The translations under genes and the position numbers were made by a program. The notes under the pieces were generated by a model. The model was given only the letters and a program-made list of their open reading frames with translations, was not told the origin of the DNA and did no database searches. From the NCBI RefSeq assembly GCF_000975055.1, contig NZ_BBRB01000001.1, positions 875,751-939,750 on the forward strand: a stretch of DNA of 64,000 nucleotides, in the 5' to 3' direction. Each line of letters starts with the position of its first letter. Within the stretch, counting starts at the first letter, position 1. The stretch comes from Demequina sediminicola. Its GTDB lineage: Bacteria > Actinomycetota > Actinomycetes > Actinomycetales > Demequinaceae. Of this stretch, positions 29,740-52,050 are shown piece after piece.

Positions 29740-29801
29740 CGCCAAATGGCTCCATTTCGCTGTTTTGAGGCCCCAAAACAGCGAAATCGAGCCACTTGGC
29801 G
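29740..29801. repeat. 62-bp palindromic element, copy 1 (closed)
   Basis: Two 28-bp arms (begin CGCCAAATGGCTCC, end CTGTTTTG) matching at 26 of 28 positions, around AGGCCC. Each arm itself contains AAATGG-CT-CCATTT (CGATTT in one arm), allowing alternative folds. It lies 7 bp beyond the stop of the minus-strand MFS gene. It belongs to the same family as 45077-45103, 46343-46369 and 51989-52050. Confidence 0.85.
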
Positions 29802-43086: not shown

Positions 43087-44097
43087 GTGGAACCGCAGCG
43101 CGACACTTCAGGCTCGTCGTCGCCCCAAGATGGCGCCAGTTCCGCGCGCCCCGGCGACCCAAGCATCGGCCCGGCCAACAAGAAAAAGGCCCCAGGCAAG
43201 AGCGCCTCCAAGGCGACAGCCAAACCCACCGCCAAACCCGCCGCAAAGCCCTCGACCAAGCCGTCCACGCAGTCAGGAACCAAGCGCCCCCGCGCGGGCA
43301 GGATGCGCCGCCCCATCGAAACGCCGCAGGACCTCCACGTCGCAGCCGCCCTGATCGTTGCCCACAACCGTGCCCGACGTATCGCTGCCACCGTCCGTGC
43401 TGCCCGCTCCATTCCGGGCGTCGACACCGTGCTGGTAGTTGACGACGCCTCCACAGACAACACGCAAGAGCTCGCTCGTAAGGCCGGTGCGGTCGTAGTC
43501 CGCCATTCACACCCACGCGGACGCAGCGCCTCCATCGAGACCGGCGCCTCCGTCATCGCGATGCGCGACGAACCTGGCCGCGAACCACGCGCCATCCTTC
43601 TCCTCCCCGCCTCCCTCGGGCACTACGCCGTGGGCGCTGCACCCCTGGTAGCGGCGGTGACGGAGCACGTCGCCGACCTCGTGGTCGCCCGCGCAGAAGG
43701 GGAGCCACGCGTCGAAGGGCCATCTTCCAAGGCCGCCCGCCACGCCGTCGAGAAAGCCACCAAGTGGACCCCCGAGGAACCACTCGCGCCCGTCCGATGC
43801 CTCACTCGCGAAGCGCTTGAAGCGTCCATGCCGCTCGCGCGCGGCTCCGGCCTCGAAGTCGGCATGATCCTCGACGTGTTGCACGCGGGGCTCACCGTGA
43901 CAGAGGTCGAATGCGAACTCGGGCATGTGCAGCGCTCCAGCGGAGAAGGCAGCGGTCGCGCCAAAGTGGCGCGGTACCGAGACGTGATGCTTGCCATCAA
44001 TACACGGCGGGTCAAGAGCGGACTGTCGCAGACACGTGGAATGGTGGGGCGCAAACGGCGCAACATTGCCGACGACGACCCAAAGGACAGCCTGTGA
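43087..44097 (+). CDS. Glycosyltransferase family 2-like protein with basic Lys/Ala/Pro leader
   Basis: 336 residues from GTG 43087. Residues 1-75 are low-complexity Lys/Pro/Ala/Ser (SASKATAKPTAKPAAKPSTK). The GT-A fold then begins: AAALIVAHNRARRIAATVRA, VDTVLVVDDASTDNTQELAR, and GAVVVRHSHPRGRSASIETG. This is the nucleotide-sugar-binding half of GT2 enzymes, but the usual DxD is not obvious (PASLGHYAVG occupies that region). The end is basic (VGRKRRNIADDDPKDSL). No membrane helix is seen. It overlaps pheA by 4 bp (GTGA), so the two are translationally coupled. Acceptor and donor unknown; it may be catalytically altered. Confidence 0.8.
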   Translation: MEPQRDTSGSSSPQDGASSARPGDPSIGPANKKKAPGKSASKATAKPTAKPAAKPSTKPSTQSGTKRPRAGRMRRPIETPQDLHVAAALIVAHNRARRIAATVRAARSIPGVDTVLVVDDASTDNTQELARKAGAVVVRHSHPRGRSASIETGASVIAMRDEPGREPRAILLLPASLGHYAVGAAPLVAAVTEHVADLVVARAEGEPRVEGPSSKAARHAVEKATKWTPEEPLAPVRCLTREALEASMPLARGSGLEVGMILDVLHAGLTVTEVECELGHVQRSSGEGSGRAKVARYRDVMLAINTRRVKSGLSQTRGMVGRKRRNIADDDPKDSL

Positions 44098-45044
44098 GCT
44101 CACTTCCCAAGTACGCGTACCTGGGGCCAGCCGGAACCTTCACCCATGCCGCCCTGCGGGCCATGGTGGACCCGGACACCGCGGAGTTTGTGCCATGCGT
44201 CGATGTGGTGACAGCCCTTGGTGCCGTGCGGGCTGGGGACGTGGACTACGCGGTGGTCGCTATCGAAAACACCGTTGAAGGTGGAGTGACAGCCACACTC
44301 GACACCCTTGCCAGCGGTGATCCACTCGTGATCGTAGGCGAGACGGTACTTCCGGTGGCCTTCGAATTGCTGGTGCGTCCCGGCACTGAACTCTCAGACA
44401 TCACTGCCGTGTCAGCGCATTCGCACGCATGGGCTCAAGTCCGGCGCTGGGCTAACGCAACGCTGCCAGACGCCACGTTTGTGGGGGCGTCATCGAACGC
44501 TGCCGCGGCAGTGGCGTTGGCTGACCAGTCCCGGTCGCTCGATGAGGTAGGTTTCACCGCCGCGCTGGCACCTCCGGGTACTGGAGAGGCGTTGGGCCTG
44601 ACGGTGATCGCGGACCGAGTGGCGGACAGCGTTTCCGCTGCAACTCGTTTTGTGAAGGTGGGGCGCCCCTGCCCGGTGGGACGGCCGACTGGTGCGGACA
44701 AAACCACCCTCGTCGTGCATCTGCCGTCTGACCACTCGGGTGCGCTGATGGAGATGCTGGAGCAGTTCGCTGTCCGCGGTGTCGTACTGTCCCGCATCGA
44801 ATCGCGTCCCATTGGGGACCGTCCCGGCGAGTACTCGTTCTCGATGGACCTCTTGGGGCATGTCGGGGAAGCGCGTGTGGCGGAGGCGCTCATGGGTTTG
44901 AAGCGCACGTGCCCCGTGGTGCGATTCTTGGGCTCGTACCCGAAGGCCGACGGTGAGGTCACGGATGTGAGCATGGACACGGGCGATGAGGCCTTCGATC
45001 AGGCGGCCAACTGGGTGGAATCGCTCCGCGACGGCACCCACTAA
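44094..45044 (+). CDS. pheA: Prephenate dehydratase
   Basis: 316 residues, GTG start inside the previous stop. Catalytic domain: YAYLGPAGTFTHAALRAM, VAIENTVEGGVTATLD, and the conserved T-R-F (SAATRFVKVGRP). ACT regulatory domain: DHSGALMEMLEQFAVRGVVL and SRIESRPIGDRPGEYSFSMD, the ESRP motif that binds phenylalanine. There is no chorismate mutase domain. It decarboxylates and dehydrates prephenate to phenylpyruvate, with feedback inhibition by Phe. It is followed by a C-rich tract and an arm of the palindromic element. Confidence 0.96.
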   Translation: MSSLPKYAYLGPAGTFTHAALRAMVDPDTAEFVPCVDVVTALGAVRAGDVDYAVVAIENTVEGGVTATLDTLASGDPLVIVGETVLPVAFELLVRPGTELSDITAVSAHSHAWAQVRRWANATLPDATFVGASSNAAAAVALADQSRSLDEVGFTAALAPPGTGEALGLTVIADRVADSVSAATRFVKVGRPCPVGRPTGADKTTLVVHLPSDHSGALMEMLEQFAVRGVVLSRIESRPIGDRPGEYSFSMDLLGHVGEARVAEALMGLKRTCPVVRFLGSYPKADGEVTDVSMDTGDEAFDQAANWVESLRDGTH

Positions 45045-45076
45045 CCCCGCTTCCCCCCCCCGCGCCCCTTCCCCTC

Positions 45077-45103
45077 GCGAAATGGCTCCATTTCGCTGTT
45101 TTG
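45077..45103 (+). repeat. Palindromic-element arm, left copy (inverted to 46343-46369)
   Basis: 27 bp beginning GCGAAATGGCTCC and ending CTGTTTTG. It is the exact reverse complement of 46343-46369 and nearly identical to one arm of the closed copies. The inner CGAAATGG-CT-CCATTTCG can fold alone. Confidence 0.9.
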
Positions 45104-45174
45104 ACGTGCCATAACGGGCATTTTTCGCCACTCCAGGTGAGCGGGGCATCGGCCCTACGCAATGGCCCGACAGA

Positions 45175-45200
45175 CAGCCCTGACAGCCAGCCCTGACAGA
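45175..45200 (+). repeat. Two direct repeats of CAGCCCTGACAG
   Basis: Two identical 12-mers with a 14-bp period upstream of the DUF559 gene. Possible protein-binding sites; otherwise unexplained. Confidence 0.5.
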
Positions 45201-45340
45201 CAACCTGGACAACGCAATCCGCGCAAGACAGTCTGCGCTCGTTCCGCGTCATCGCGCTTGAGGCCGTCCCCAGGTCCCAGCCCGTCCACGCGTTACCGAC
45301 ATCTCGCCATGAGACTCTTCGGCTGGATCTGAACCGCACC

Positions 45341-45346
45341 TACGGT
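45341..45346 (+). promoter_or_regulatory. -10 box of leaderless DUF559 gene
   Basis: TACGGT, then 7 nt, then ATG 45354. Confidence 0.5.
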
Positions 45347-45353
45347 CGCCACC

Positions 45354-46322
45354 ATGACCCCACGCCCAGCATTCGCCGTCTACGCACTTGTCGCCGCGCT
45401 CGCGGAGTCAGGTGTGGCACATCCGCGCCGCCACGTTGAGGAACGCTGGTCCAGTGCCACACTTACGTCGGCCCTGCAGTCGGGTGATGTGGTCCGCGTC
45501 GGTCCCGGGCTGTTTGCCCACCGCGACGCGGAGCAGACCATGCGATGCAGACTCTCCGTGGCCGCCCAGTGGCTGCCCCAGGGCGGAGCGGTTGCCGGTC
45601 GAGCGGCGCTCTGGTGCGCAGGGTGGCGAGATGAGCATCCAGCCCAGCTCCACGCCATCGTTCCGCGCGCTGTGCGCACGCCGGCACCTCCCCTGTTGAA
45701 GCTGCGGCGCACGGACATTGAGATGGCGGCAACTCATATCGAGGGGGTGCCGGTAGTGAATTCCGCGGATGCGCTGATCCTCGCGTGGCAGTGGACTCAG
45801 CCCCATGAACGCATTGGGTTCGCGTGTGATGCGTTTCGTTCGGAGGTGGTGCGCCCGGCCGATGTTGCGCGTCGGACGGGTTTTCATCCCCGGATCCCCA
45901 ACCGTACGGATCTTGAAAGTGCGTGCTCGCTCGCGTCACGCGGTGTCACGTCGATGCTGGAGTACCGCGCAATGACAGAGGTTTTCACGGGGGACGAGTG
46001 GGATCGTTGGGAGGTTCAGGCTCCGGTGTCTGCTGGTGGGCGCACGTTTGTAGTGGACATGCTCCTGCGCGCGGCTCGCGTTGCAGTTGAGTTTGATGGG
46101 GCTCGCTATCACTCAGATGACCTGCGGCGCCGTCGAGACCTTGAGCGTGATGCGCTCCTTGCGGGCGCGGGCTATGTGACGGTCCGTCTTACCTGGGAGG
46201 ACATTGCTGGACGGCCTGGGTGGTGTCGTCGGCAGGTGAGGCTTGCGGTGGCGCGGCGGACGGCCACGGATAGGGCCGATGCTGGTGGAGCTGCCGGTGC
46301 AGAGATCCCCTGGAGTGGCTGA
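45354..46322 (+). CDS. DUF559 (Vsr-like) endonuclease-fold protein with AbiEi-like N-terminus
   Basis: 322 residues. The N-terminus resembles the winged-helix half of AbiEi-type proteins: VAHPRRHVEERWSSATLTSA, then VVRVGPGLFAHRDAE. The middle (GAVAGRAALWCAGWRDEHP, IEGVPVVNSADALILAWQW) is typical of this actinobacterial group. The C-terminal DUF559 domain has GGRTFVVDMLLRAARVAVEF, then DGARYHSDDLRRRRDLERDA and LLAGAGYVTVRLTWEDI. It keeps the Asp, Glu and Asp expected of a PD-(D/E)xK/Vsr-type nuclease. Its cellular role is unknown. It is bracketed by two exact inverted 27-bp arms, with a C-rich tract outside the left arm and a G-rich tract outside the right, so it may be part of a mobile or repeat-associated unit. 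Confidence 0.83.
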   Translation: MTPRPAFAVYALVAALAESGVAHPRRHVEERWSSATLTSALQSGDVVRVGPGLFAHRDAEQTMRCRLSVAAQWLPQGGAVAGRAALWCAGWRDEHPAQLHAIVPRAVRTPAPPLLKLRRTDIEMAATHIEGVPVVNSADALILAWQWTQPHERIGFACDAFRSEVVRPADVARRTGFHPRIPNRTDLESACSLASRGVTSMLEYRAMTEVFTGDEWDRWEVQAPVSAGGRTFVVDMLLRAARVAVEFDGARYHSDDLRRRRDLERDALLAGAGYVTVRLTWEDIAGRPGWCRRQVRLAVARRTATDRADAGGAAGAEIPWSG

Positions 46323-46342
46323 AAATGCGCGTCTTGGTGCCG

Positions 46343-46369
46343 CAAAACAGCGAAATGGAGCCATTTCGC
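46343..46369 (-). repeat. Palindromic-element arm, right copy
   Basis: Reverse complement of 45077-45103 over all 27 bp. It lies 20 bp after the DUF559 gene stop. Confidence 0.9.
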
Positions 46370-46370
46370 A

Positions 46371-46404
46371 GGGAGGGTGGGGGGAAGGGTGGGGAGGGTG
46401 AGGG
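46371..46404 (+). repeat. G-rich tract (potential quadruplex)
   Basis: Seven runs of three or more G separated by one or two bases, between the right arm and the stop of the convergent diacylglycerol-kinase-like gene. It mirrors the C-rich tract outside the left arm. Confidence 0.75.
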
Positions 46405-46405
46405 C

Positions 46406-47554
46406 TTAGTCGCGGGCGACGCGGATCTTCAACGCGCCGGGCTTCACCCAGCCACGCAAACGGATCGCACGCCCCAGCGACTCACCGTCAACCTGGACAC
46501 GCTGCGGCTGCGCCATCTCCACGGAGACCTCTACGCCACGCACGTGGTCAATCCGCGACGTTCGCCACGCACGCAGCGCCTGACGCTGGCGAATGCCCGC
46601 GCCCTGCGCCACCACAGAGCCAAACAACTCGGTCCATCCCACTAGACCGCCGCGCGCATCCAACGTCGCGATGTCGAGTTGCCCATCGGTGATCGACGCA
46701 TCGGGAATCAGCTGCAAGCCGCCGGGGAGTCGTCCCGCATTCGCCATGAGGACGGTGCGCATTTCCGTTGTTGAAGGCTCTCCCTTGTCAACGGCCACCG
46801 TCGCGGTGATGCGCTTGTCTCCCAGATGTTCGATCGCGGCAAAGAAGTACGCGAACCATCCCACGCGCTTCTTCAGGGTGGCATCTGTGCCAGCGACCAT
46901 CTCAGCATCGAAGCCAATTCCAGCCATCACGAGGAACAAGTGTGTGCCGTCTTCACCGTGGCCTGGGTAGGCACGTTCGATGTCCATGAAGCCCACGTCG
47001 ACGGCCTGCGTGTTGCCTTCGAGGATGATCCGCAACTGGGTGCCGACGTCGTTCAACGGCATGTCCAGGTTGCGGGCAAACAGGTTCCCCGTCCCTATGG
47101 GAATAACTCCCATTGACGCGTCGCTATCTACGAGCGCATCCGCCACGGCACGCACGGTTCCGTCGCCGCCGACGGCGACCACGACATCGGCTCCCTGAGC
47201 GAGAGCTTCACGTGCCTGCCCGGTTCCGGGGTCATCGATGGTGGTTTCGAACCACAGCGGTTCGGGTAGGTAACGCGCTGAGCAGGCCTGGATTGCTCGC
47301 TCGCGCATTTCTGGCACCCCGGATTTGGACGGGTTGGCGACGAAGGCGATAATTTGGCGTTCGCGGCCTTCGAGTTTGCCGGCGCGGTCTGCTGTGGCGC
47401 TGGAGATGGGTTTGATACGGAGGAATCGGCGCCAAAAGATGGGCACCGACAATGGATCACGGGCACCGACGCGGCGTACGACACTGACGACGAGGGTGAG
47501 CGCGATTATCGCGATCACCAGCGCCGCTCCTCCGAGTGCCATAGGCCAGACCAT
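46406..47554 (-). CDS. Diacylglycerol kinase catalytic-domain lipid kinase
   Basis: 382 residues. N-terminal helix ([20 protein letters not shown]), then a DAGK/YegS-type catalytic domain: [40 protein letters not shown] (nucleotide-binding GGDGT), [39 protein letters not shown], and [11 protein letters not shown] at the end. It phosphorylates diacylglycerol or a related lipid at the membrane, recycling lipid precursors. The start is supported by TAGGCT six bases upstream; the promoter is divergent from and close to that of serS. Substrate not fixed. Confidence 0.92.
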
Positions 47555-51988: not shown

Positions 51989-52050
51989 CGCCAAATGGCT
52001 CCATTTCGCTGTCTTGAGCGCTCAAAACAGCGAAATGGAGCCATTTGGCG
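51989..52050. repeat. 62-bp palindromic element, copy 4 (closed, near perfect)
   Basis: Two 31-bp arms with no loop (centre TTGAGCGCTCAA), 30 of 31 positions paired. It lies 6 bp after the AGE-family gene and 22 bp from the convergent quinone oxidoreductase stop, where it could serve as a two-way terminator. Confidence 0.9.

Follow-up and report, generated by a model that had tools for sequence, protein, structure and literature searches.

A DUF559 nuclease-type gene between inverted palindromic units in Demequina, and a comparable gene/repeat association in related bacteria

To our knowledge, palindromes of the repetitive extragenic palindromic (REP) type have one established class of partner enzyme, the HUH-type REP-associated tyrosine transposases (RAYTs). 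The reference system, the REPtron, joins such a transposase to its REPs, and excerpts of the work on it report that, in orthologous rayt genes, the autonomous copy stays put while the repeats change (PMC2817692). Excerpts of a second study describe a CGTC super-family of REPs reported without a dedicated transposase (PMC3733652). Here, we describe a locus of Demequina sediminicola in which a gene of the DUF559 family stands between two inverted palindromic units. The locus lies in the window, meaning the whole stretch of 64,000 nucleotides that was analysed (contig NZ_BBRB01000001.1, positions 875,751 to 939,750 of the forward strand), which comes from a genome of 2.46 Mb (G000). The observation made in the window is one case of a wider pattern in Demequina and related bacteria. 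It is fairly probable that the DUF559 gene and its two inverted units form one repeat-propagating module whose units are copied to the 3′ ends of genes, and the whole of the analysis points to an enzyme that likely recognises and spreads its own repeats. An initial annotation of the window had proposed a RAYT-like role for the protein; this idea is well supported by the inverted bracketing of the gene, the dispersal of the repeat family where the cognate gene is present and the co-variation of unit and protein.

As in the RAYT/REPtron, a single gene lies between inverted palindromic repeats, the repeats are scattered through intergenic 3′ regions, repeat and gene vary together, the presence of the gene goes with the abundance of the repeat, and the gene is less conserved than its immediate neighbours. 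In contrast to the RAYT/REPtron, the protein is of an AbiEi-like plus PD-(D/E)XK/Vsr type, without a HUH/tyrosine transposase (IS200/IS605-like), and the unit measures about 55-67 bp and is often one long palindrome. The DUF559 module behaves like a REPtron in every feature testable here save the enzyme, and is not classed as a REPtron. It shares terminal inverted repeats (TIRs) with insertion sequences and miniature inverted-repeat transposable elements. Palindromic repeats in dimers at 3′ ends are shared with the CGTC-tagged REPs, and an arrangement of TIR-flanked genes with some dispersed TIRs is shared with the TIRtrons, which, unlike the present system, carry HUH tyrosine transposases, as described in the same excerpts (PMC3733652). 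The gene and the units of the window are the following.

45354..46322, + strand: DUF559/MTES_1575 gene, 322 amino acids, with a predicted AbiEi-like DNA-binding half (about residues 7-195) and a predicted homing-endonuclease/Vsr-type domain (about 194-304), from Pfam, PADLOC AbiEi profiles, AlphaFold2 and structure matches
45076..45138, + strand: left unit, with the full hairpin half at 45077-45103 (stem-loop 45077-45096, T-rich tail) followed by a degenerate inner half
46308..46370, - strand: right unit, an inverted copy of the left unit, with the full half at 46343-46369 outside and the degenerate half inside, over the last codons of the DUF559 gene
29740..29801, no strand: closed symmetric 62-bp unit of the window family
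51989..52050, no strand: closed symmetric 62-bp unit between two convergent genes; D. flava and Demequina sp. B12 (G065) have no unit at the orthologous site, where D. globuliformis (G036) has a double-unit element

The initial assignment of the gene to DUF559 stands above the Pfam cut-off (26.6 versus 20.6 bits), and at E ≤ 1 the protein matched MTES_1575, DUF559 and, weakly, AbiEi_4 only, with a similar outcome in eight relatives. AbiEi profiles of PADLOC match the N-terminal half, profile matches in the PDB include the endonuclease 3hrl and I-Bth0305I, and the AlphaFold2 model has a pLDDT (predicted local distance difference test) of 93.4. The C-terminal domain is predicted to have the fold of Vsr (1cw0) and of the catalytic domain of I-Bth0305I (PDB 3r3p), to which it is closest and which presumably belongs to the class named EDxHD, and acidic residues of this nuclease domain are conserved in the family. 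It differs from both in its fusion to an AbiEi-like half and in its association with palindromic repeats. The N-terminal ~190 residues are predicted to have the fold of the AbiEi antitoxin (PDB 6y8q) of the type IV toxin-antitoxin system AbiE, known members of which bind inverted repeats; unlike in AbiE, a nuclease domain is fused here, and the gene of the window is flanked by pheA and a kinase gene, with no adjacent AbiEii-type nucleotidyltransferase toxin. The protein is predicted to be an AbiEi-like DNA-binding half joined to a homing-endonuclease/Vsr-type domain, and it is not a HUH transposase.

As the initial annotation had noted, the 27-bp arms at 45077-45103 and 46343-46369 are exact reverse complements of each other, and its suspicion that the symmetry extends further was borne out by a looser inverted similarity of 104 nt at 74% (45050-45153 versus 46293-46396). 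The two closed palindromes to which it had drawn attention have arms that are 90% (29740-29801) and 97% (51989-52050) complementary, and their RNA folds have energies of -40.7 and -48.7 kcal/mol, respectively (z = -10.2 and -12.9 versus dinucleotide shuffles). A 20-mer that covers the T-rich tail and some of the stem matches the genome at 81 sites with up to 3 mismatches, versus 1 for its reversed control, so the repetition of the arm is not due to chance. Comparison of the copies showed that each 27-bp arm belongs to a separate ~62-bp unit as its outer half, the inner half being a degenerate version of it. A full half comprises a 20-bp stem-loop and the tail TGTTTTG, and the second half is either its mirror copy, in closed symmetric units, or a degenerate version, in asymmetric ones. 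The initial description of the locus as a palindrome opened by the gene holds only in part: the arms belong to two separate asymmetric units with the full half outside, and the splitting of a single palindrome was rejected on that ground.

Sixty units of the window family, collected from the window and from 40 stretches fetched from the same genome (L036-L075), comprise 31 symmetric and 29 asymmetric ones. Asymmetric neighbours within 2.5 kb formed seven facing pairs, two arrangements in the same direction and none back to back, and 15 asymmetric units were solo. The facing pairs, one of which is the DUF559 element, have their degenerate halves inside and measure 245 to 1,832 bp overall. Because the two outer halves are the same as those that make up the closed form, an open pair may collapse to give a closed unit, or a closed unit may open; at one orthologous site, D. 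sediminicola has the closed form and D. globuliformis the open one. An inverted pair of window-family units of 1.8 kb (L037, 2494-4325, contig C9) holds, in place of DUF559, an open reading frame (ORF) of 340 amino acids with no Pfam match at E ≤ 0.01.

The units lie between convergent genes in 32 of the 60 cases and between divergent genes in 2, versus 11 and 11 of the 48 neighbouring gene pairs of the window (one-sided p 0.001 and 0.002), on rough gene calls that leave 4 of the 60 'inside' a called gene. It seems unlikely, in view of this location at gene 3′ ends, that the units are operators through which the AbiEi-like domain represses its own gene, with the dispersed copies as a regulon and a role for the nuclease domain unrelated to repeat spread. 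In favour of operators, the N-terminal half resembles AbiEi, excerpts of PMC7319586 describe AbiEi antitoxins that regulate their own expression through inverted repeats, and in many DUF559 loci the left unit lies ~50-200 bp before the estimated gene start; yet the right unit mostly starts close to the stop codon, and units appear and vanish at orthologous sites. Over 12 nt, the flanks of the 60 units have a mean of 0.75 pyrimidine on the left and 0.77 purine on the right, which may reflect a preferred target or belong to the element itself. At the gene, the corresponding tracts are as follows.

45045..45075, + strand: C-rich tract outside the left unit
46371..46405, - strand: G-rich tract outside the right unit

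The two genes on either side were used to compare the locus across the genus.

43911..45044, + strand: left neighbour, an ORF that ends before the left unit and holds what we take to be pheA (prephenate dehydratase); conserved neighbour in relatives
46406..47554, - strand: right neighbour, presumably a diacylglycerol-kinase-like gene, convergent with pheA; conserved neighbour in relatives

The kinase protein is 75% identical to that of D. flava, the nearest named relative found with it, and 42 of the 44 genomes of the genus yielded the kinase gene; 41 loci, the window included, were laid out. DUF559 is present at the pheA-kinase junction in 8 of them and absent from 31, and the other 2 have no pheA nearby. 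The filled junctions belong to D. sediminicola, Demequina sp. B12, D. globuliformis, G015, G014, G033, G031 and G060, the last with a broken copy in a genome that is 50% complete. In all eight, DUF559 stands between well-matched inverted repeats (the left side in D. globuliformis is partly masked in the layout and its unit is seen in L086), and a DUF559 gene at this locus without arms, which the initial annotation had considered, did not occur among them. The repeat itself differs by lineage, with one family in D. sediminicola, Demequina sp. B12 and D. globuliformis and others in G015, in G014 and G060, in G033 and in G031. In G014 (L149) and G060 (L183), the genes on either side are the same and DUF559 is reversed, as though it had flipped between its inverted units or had been inserted the other way round. 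In a ninth genome, G029, DUF559 adjoins pheA where the contig ends, together with a single match that resembles an arm (5 mismatches). Identity to the window's DUF559 protein was lower than that of pheA and the kinase in seven of seven genomes (one match being partial), for example 45 versus 69 and 69%; in D. globuliformis, another neighbour fell below DUF559 (71 versus 73%).

Among the Demequina genomes, the presence of the gene goes with the abundance of its repeat. The window arm (≤2 mismatches) has 70 matches in D. sediminicola, 62 in D. globuliformis, 24 in Demequina sp. B12, 1 in G033 and 0 in the other 40 of the 44 genomes, counts that include two at the gene, and its reversed control has 0 in all 44. 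The arm of G031, sought in eight genomes, has 52 matches in G031 and at most 1 in each of the seven others, and that of G015, likewise sought in eight, has 32 in G015 and 0 elsewhere. A pattern covering the arms of G014, G060 and G033 matched 31 times in G014, 35 in G060, 26 in G029, 8 in G033, 3 in G031 and 0 in the other 39 genomes. Each of the eight genomes with the gene at the pheA locus has its own arm dispersed (8-70 matches, of which two lie at the gene) and G029 has a related motif (26), while the 35 remaining genomes have 0 matches to either of the patterns searched genus-wide. Other DUF559 genes of D. sediminicola have other repeats: the second (C11:594329) is flanked by different 57-bp palindromes, whose motif has 19 matches in that genome (4 at the gene), 1 each in two genomes and 0 in 41 (reversed control, 1 in G001 and 2 in G065), and the third (C10:143437) has 38-nt arms at 87%. 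The initial annotation had also asked whether the arms are unrelated in position to DUF559 genes. In part they are, as most of the ~60 window-family units do not adjoin such a gene, but many DUF559 genes lie between palindromes of their own; these two observations together correspond to the REP/RAYT pattern.

Bracketing was scored by aligning the left flank of DUF559 loci with the reverse complement of the right flank. In other genera of the order, 40 loci with frames of ~300-500 codons were taken from 31 genomes of 21 genera, and the 39 usable ones had a median score of 28.5 versus 12.5 for 1,500 mispaired flanks, which served as the control here instead of other genes of those genomes; 24 of the 39 exceeded the highest mispaired score (23.0). 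In Demequina, the control consisted of 171 control genes; the mispaired null is distorted there by oppositely oriented orthologous loci (99% point 160.5, maximum 279). Of the 53 usable Demequina loci, 25, or 20 of 47 excluding the pheA locus, scored above the highest control gene (20.0). Over both sets, loci L088 and L273 were left out for their cut flanks. The bracketing units are often palindromes of 55-67 bp of unrelated sequence, and arrays of shorter repeats are found at some loci. Spaced 200-kb samples of four genomes from other genera, searched with six arms, yielded further copies for three of them: L236 (3, and 1 in another genome), L272 (1) and L266 (1, its reversed control giving 1 in another genome). 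L252 is doubtful, with a reversed control as high, and the L259 and L274 arms had no further copy in these samples. In a sample of 79 genomes of the order, 72 had MTES_1575 matches, counting those in long helicase-type proteins. The order-wide search also found MTES_1575 domains in very long open frames of ~1,200-2,700 codons, which recall the HEPN/helicase fusion named in an excerpt of PMC3710099.

Across 58 loci, protein identity and unit similarity were correlated (Mantel r 0.377, with 0 of 5,000 permutations as high). Pairs of DUF559 genes within the same genome (n = 17) have unrelated units, with scores of 5-10, and three cross-genome pairs of 72-93% protein identity have unit scores of ~40. 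This co-variation largely contradicts the idea, which we consider very improbable, that the palindromes are ordinary bidirectional terminators and the nuclease gene a passenger between convergent genes that each have one: a hairpin with a T-rich tail placed at 3′ ends would suit a terminator, but the families are restricted to genomes that carry the cognate gene, the units of same-genome paralogues are unrelated while the three close orthologue pairs share theirs, and the same convergent junctions in D. flava are without a unit. The passenger alternative of the initial annotation is weakened by the contrast between paralogues and orthologues, and for the same reason the passenger/terminator account was set aside as the main interpretation.

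Comparison of species indicated that units come and go. At five non-pheA sites, units were gained or lost among D. sediminicola, D. globuliformis and Demequina sp. B12, and one convergent junction holds a closed unit in the first, a double unit in the second and empty gaps of 15 bp in the third and 12 bp in D. flava. In D. flava, which is without the junction DUF559 gene and has no match to the window repeat, no unit was found in 64-68 kb of synteny. A three-gene tree placed D. flava in a four-species group with these three (support 99), its place inside the group being weakly resolved (with D. globuliformis, support 57); among the outgroups, G015, G033, G031 and G014 have the gene at the junction and G064, G023, G034 and G013 do not. 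The simplest reading, which is not a proof, is that gene and units were lost in D. flava. In G015, eight double-unit elements of ~0.2 kb (L197-L204), picked for having paired arms, have conserved ends of ~55 bp and largely unalignable interiors, as expected if only the ends are recognised. Several of these elements carry a GGCCGATGC-type motif inside.

These comparisons also concern an unlikely alternative, namely a selfish homing-type nuclease gene that spreads itself by cutting pheA-kinase junctions that are empty, or 3′ ends elsewhere; the units would be its ends, and the solo units relics of gene loss instead of elements that spread on their own. The kinship of the catalytic domain with I-Bth0305I would agree with it, as would the gene-less junctions, 20 of 31 of which are clean gaps of only 2-57 bp (9 bp in D. 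flava), 4 others measuring 0.7-2 kb and holding other sequence. Homing would nevertheless have to accommodate ~60 solo or paired units versus one gene of this type in D. sediminicola, the non-alignable interiors of the G015 double units, and a gene that sits at one fixed locus in nine genomes.

Elsewhere in the window, an Rfam scan at gathering thresholds returned three tRNAs only. The sequence GGGCCGATGC occurs at 13 sites on both strands (e.g. 45146, 46273, 43163, 52482) versus 0.5 expected under a first-order Markov model, 9 of them inside rough gene calls, and 15 times in 68 kb of D. flava; it explains most of a 12-nt inverted match (45146-45157/46271-46282).

Under the repeat-propagating module, the AbiEi-like N-terminal half would bind the cognate ~62-bp units and the homing-endonuclease/Vsr-type C-terminal domain would cut DNA at or near them, after which break repair, or excision and insertion, may place copies of the units at further 3′ ends of genes. 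The closed 62-bp unit, in which two outer halves are joined, would be the minimal product, and the double units of 0.2-0.6 kb would be non-autonomous elements. The gene-bearing pair would represent the autonomous master copy, a vertically inherited single-copy gene that rarely moves and would keep its position as its repeats change, in the manner described for orthologous rayt genes (PMC2817692).

Several observations weigh against this module. The two window-family units beside the gene give only weak hairpin folds (z -1.6 and 0.07), two of the five DUF559 genes of D. sediminicola have a hairpin on one side only, and 23 of the 47 non-pheA loci of Demequina fall short of a score of 17, which marks the 98% point among the control genes. 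The family of G053 is hardly amplified (6 matches, 4 at the gene and 2 away, and 2 in G076), the arm of the G029 gene resembles its dispersed motif loosely (5 mismatches), and G113 gave no further copy in its 200-kb sample. The correlation between unit and protein depends on few close pairs, with scores of at least 20 in 3 of the 18 pairs at ≥60% protein identity and in 0 of the 1,635 below, from which it follows that units diverge faster than the protein. No target-site duplication was identified, the filled and empty sites, compared by eye, being too diverged for base-by-base alignment, and no movement of units within one species was seen. Finally, we know of no Vsr-type domain that is a transposase.

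The matches listed from the open-licence PMC literature (titles and abstract openings) include none that links DUF559 or MTES_1575 to palindromic repeats. We give a somewhat better than even chance to the interpretation that these AbiEi-Vsr/homing-type nucleases are a second, non-homologous class of repeat-associated mobility enzymes, each recognising, maintaining and spreading a private palindrome family whose recognised sequence is continually renewed. If this is true, the actinobacterial order holds a natural library of palindrome-specific nucleases together with their target repeats, and the small DUF559/MTES_1575 proteins would gain a testable function, the many gene/repeat pairs making specificity directly testable by partner swaps. 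If a nuclease of a different fold bears this genomic signature, 'one gene, one private palindrome family' would have evolved more than once. In conclusion, the enzymes would form a new class if the mechanism holds and, if the protein merely regulates or binds, the association between gene and repeat would still be new.
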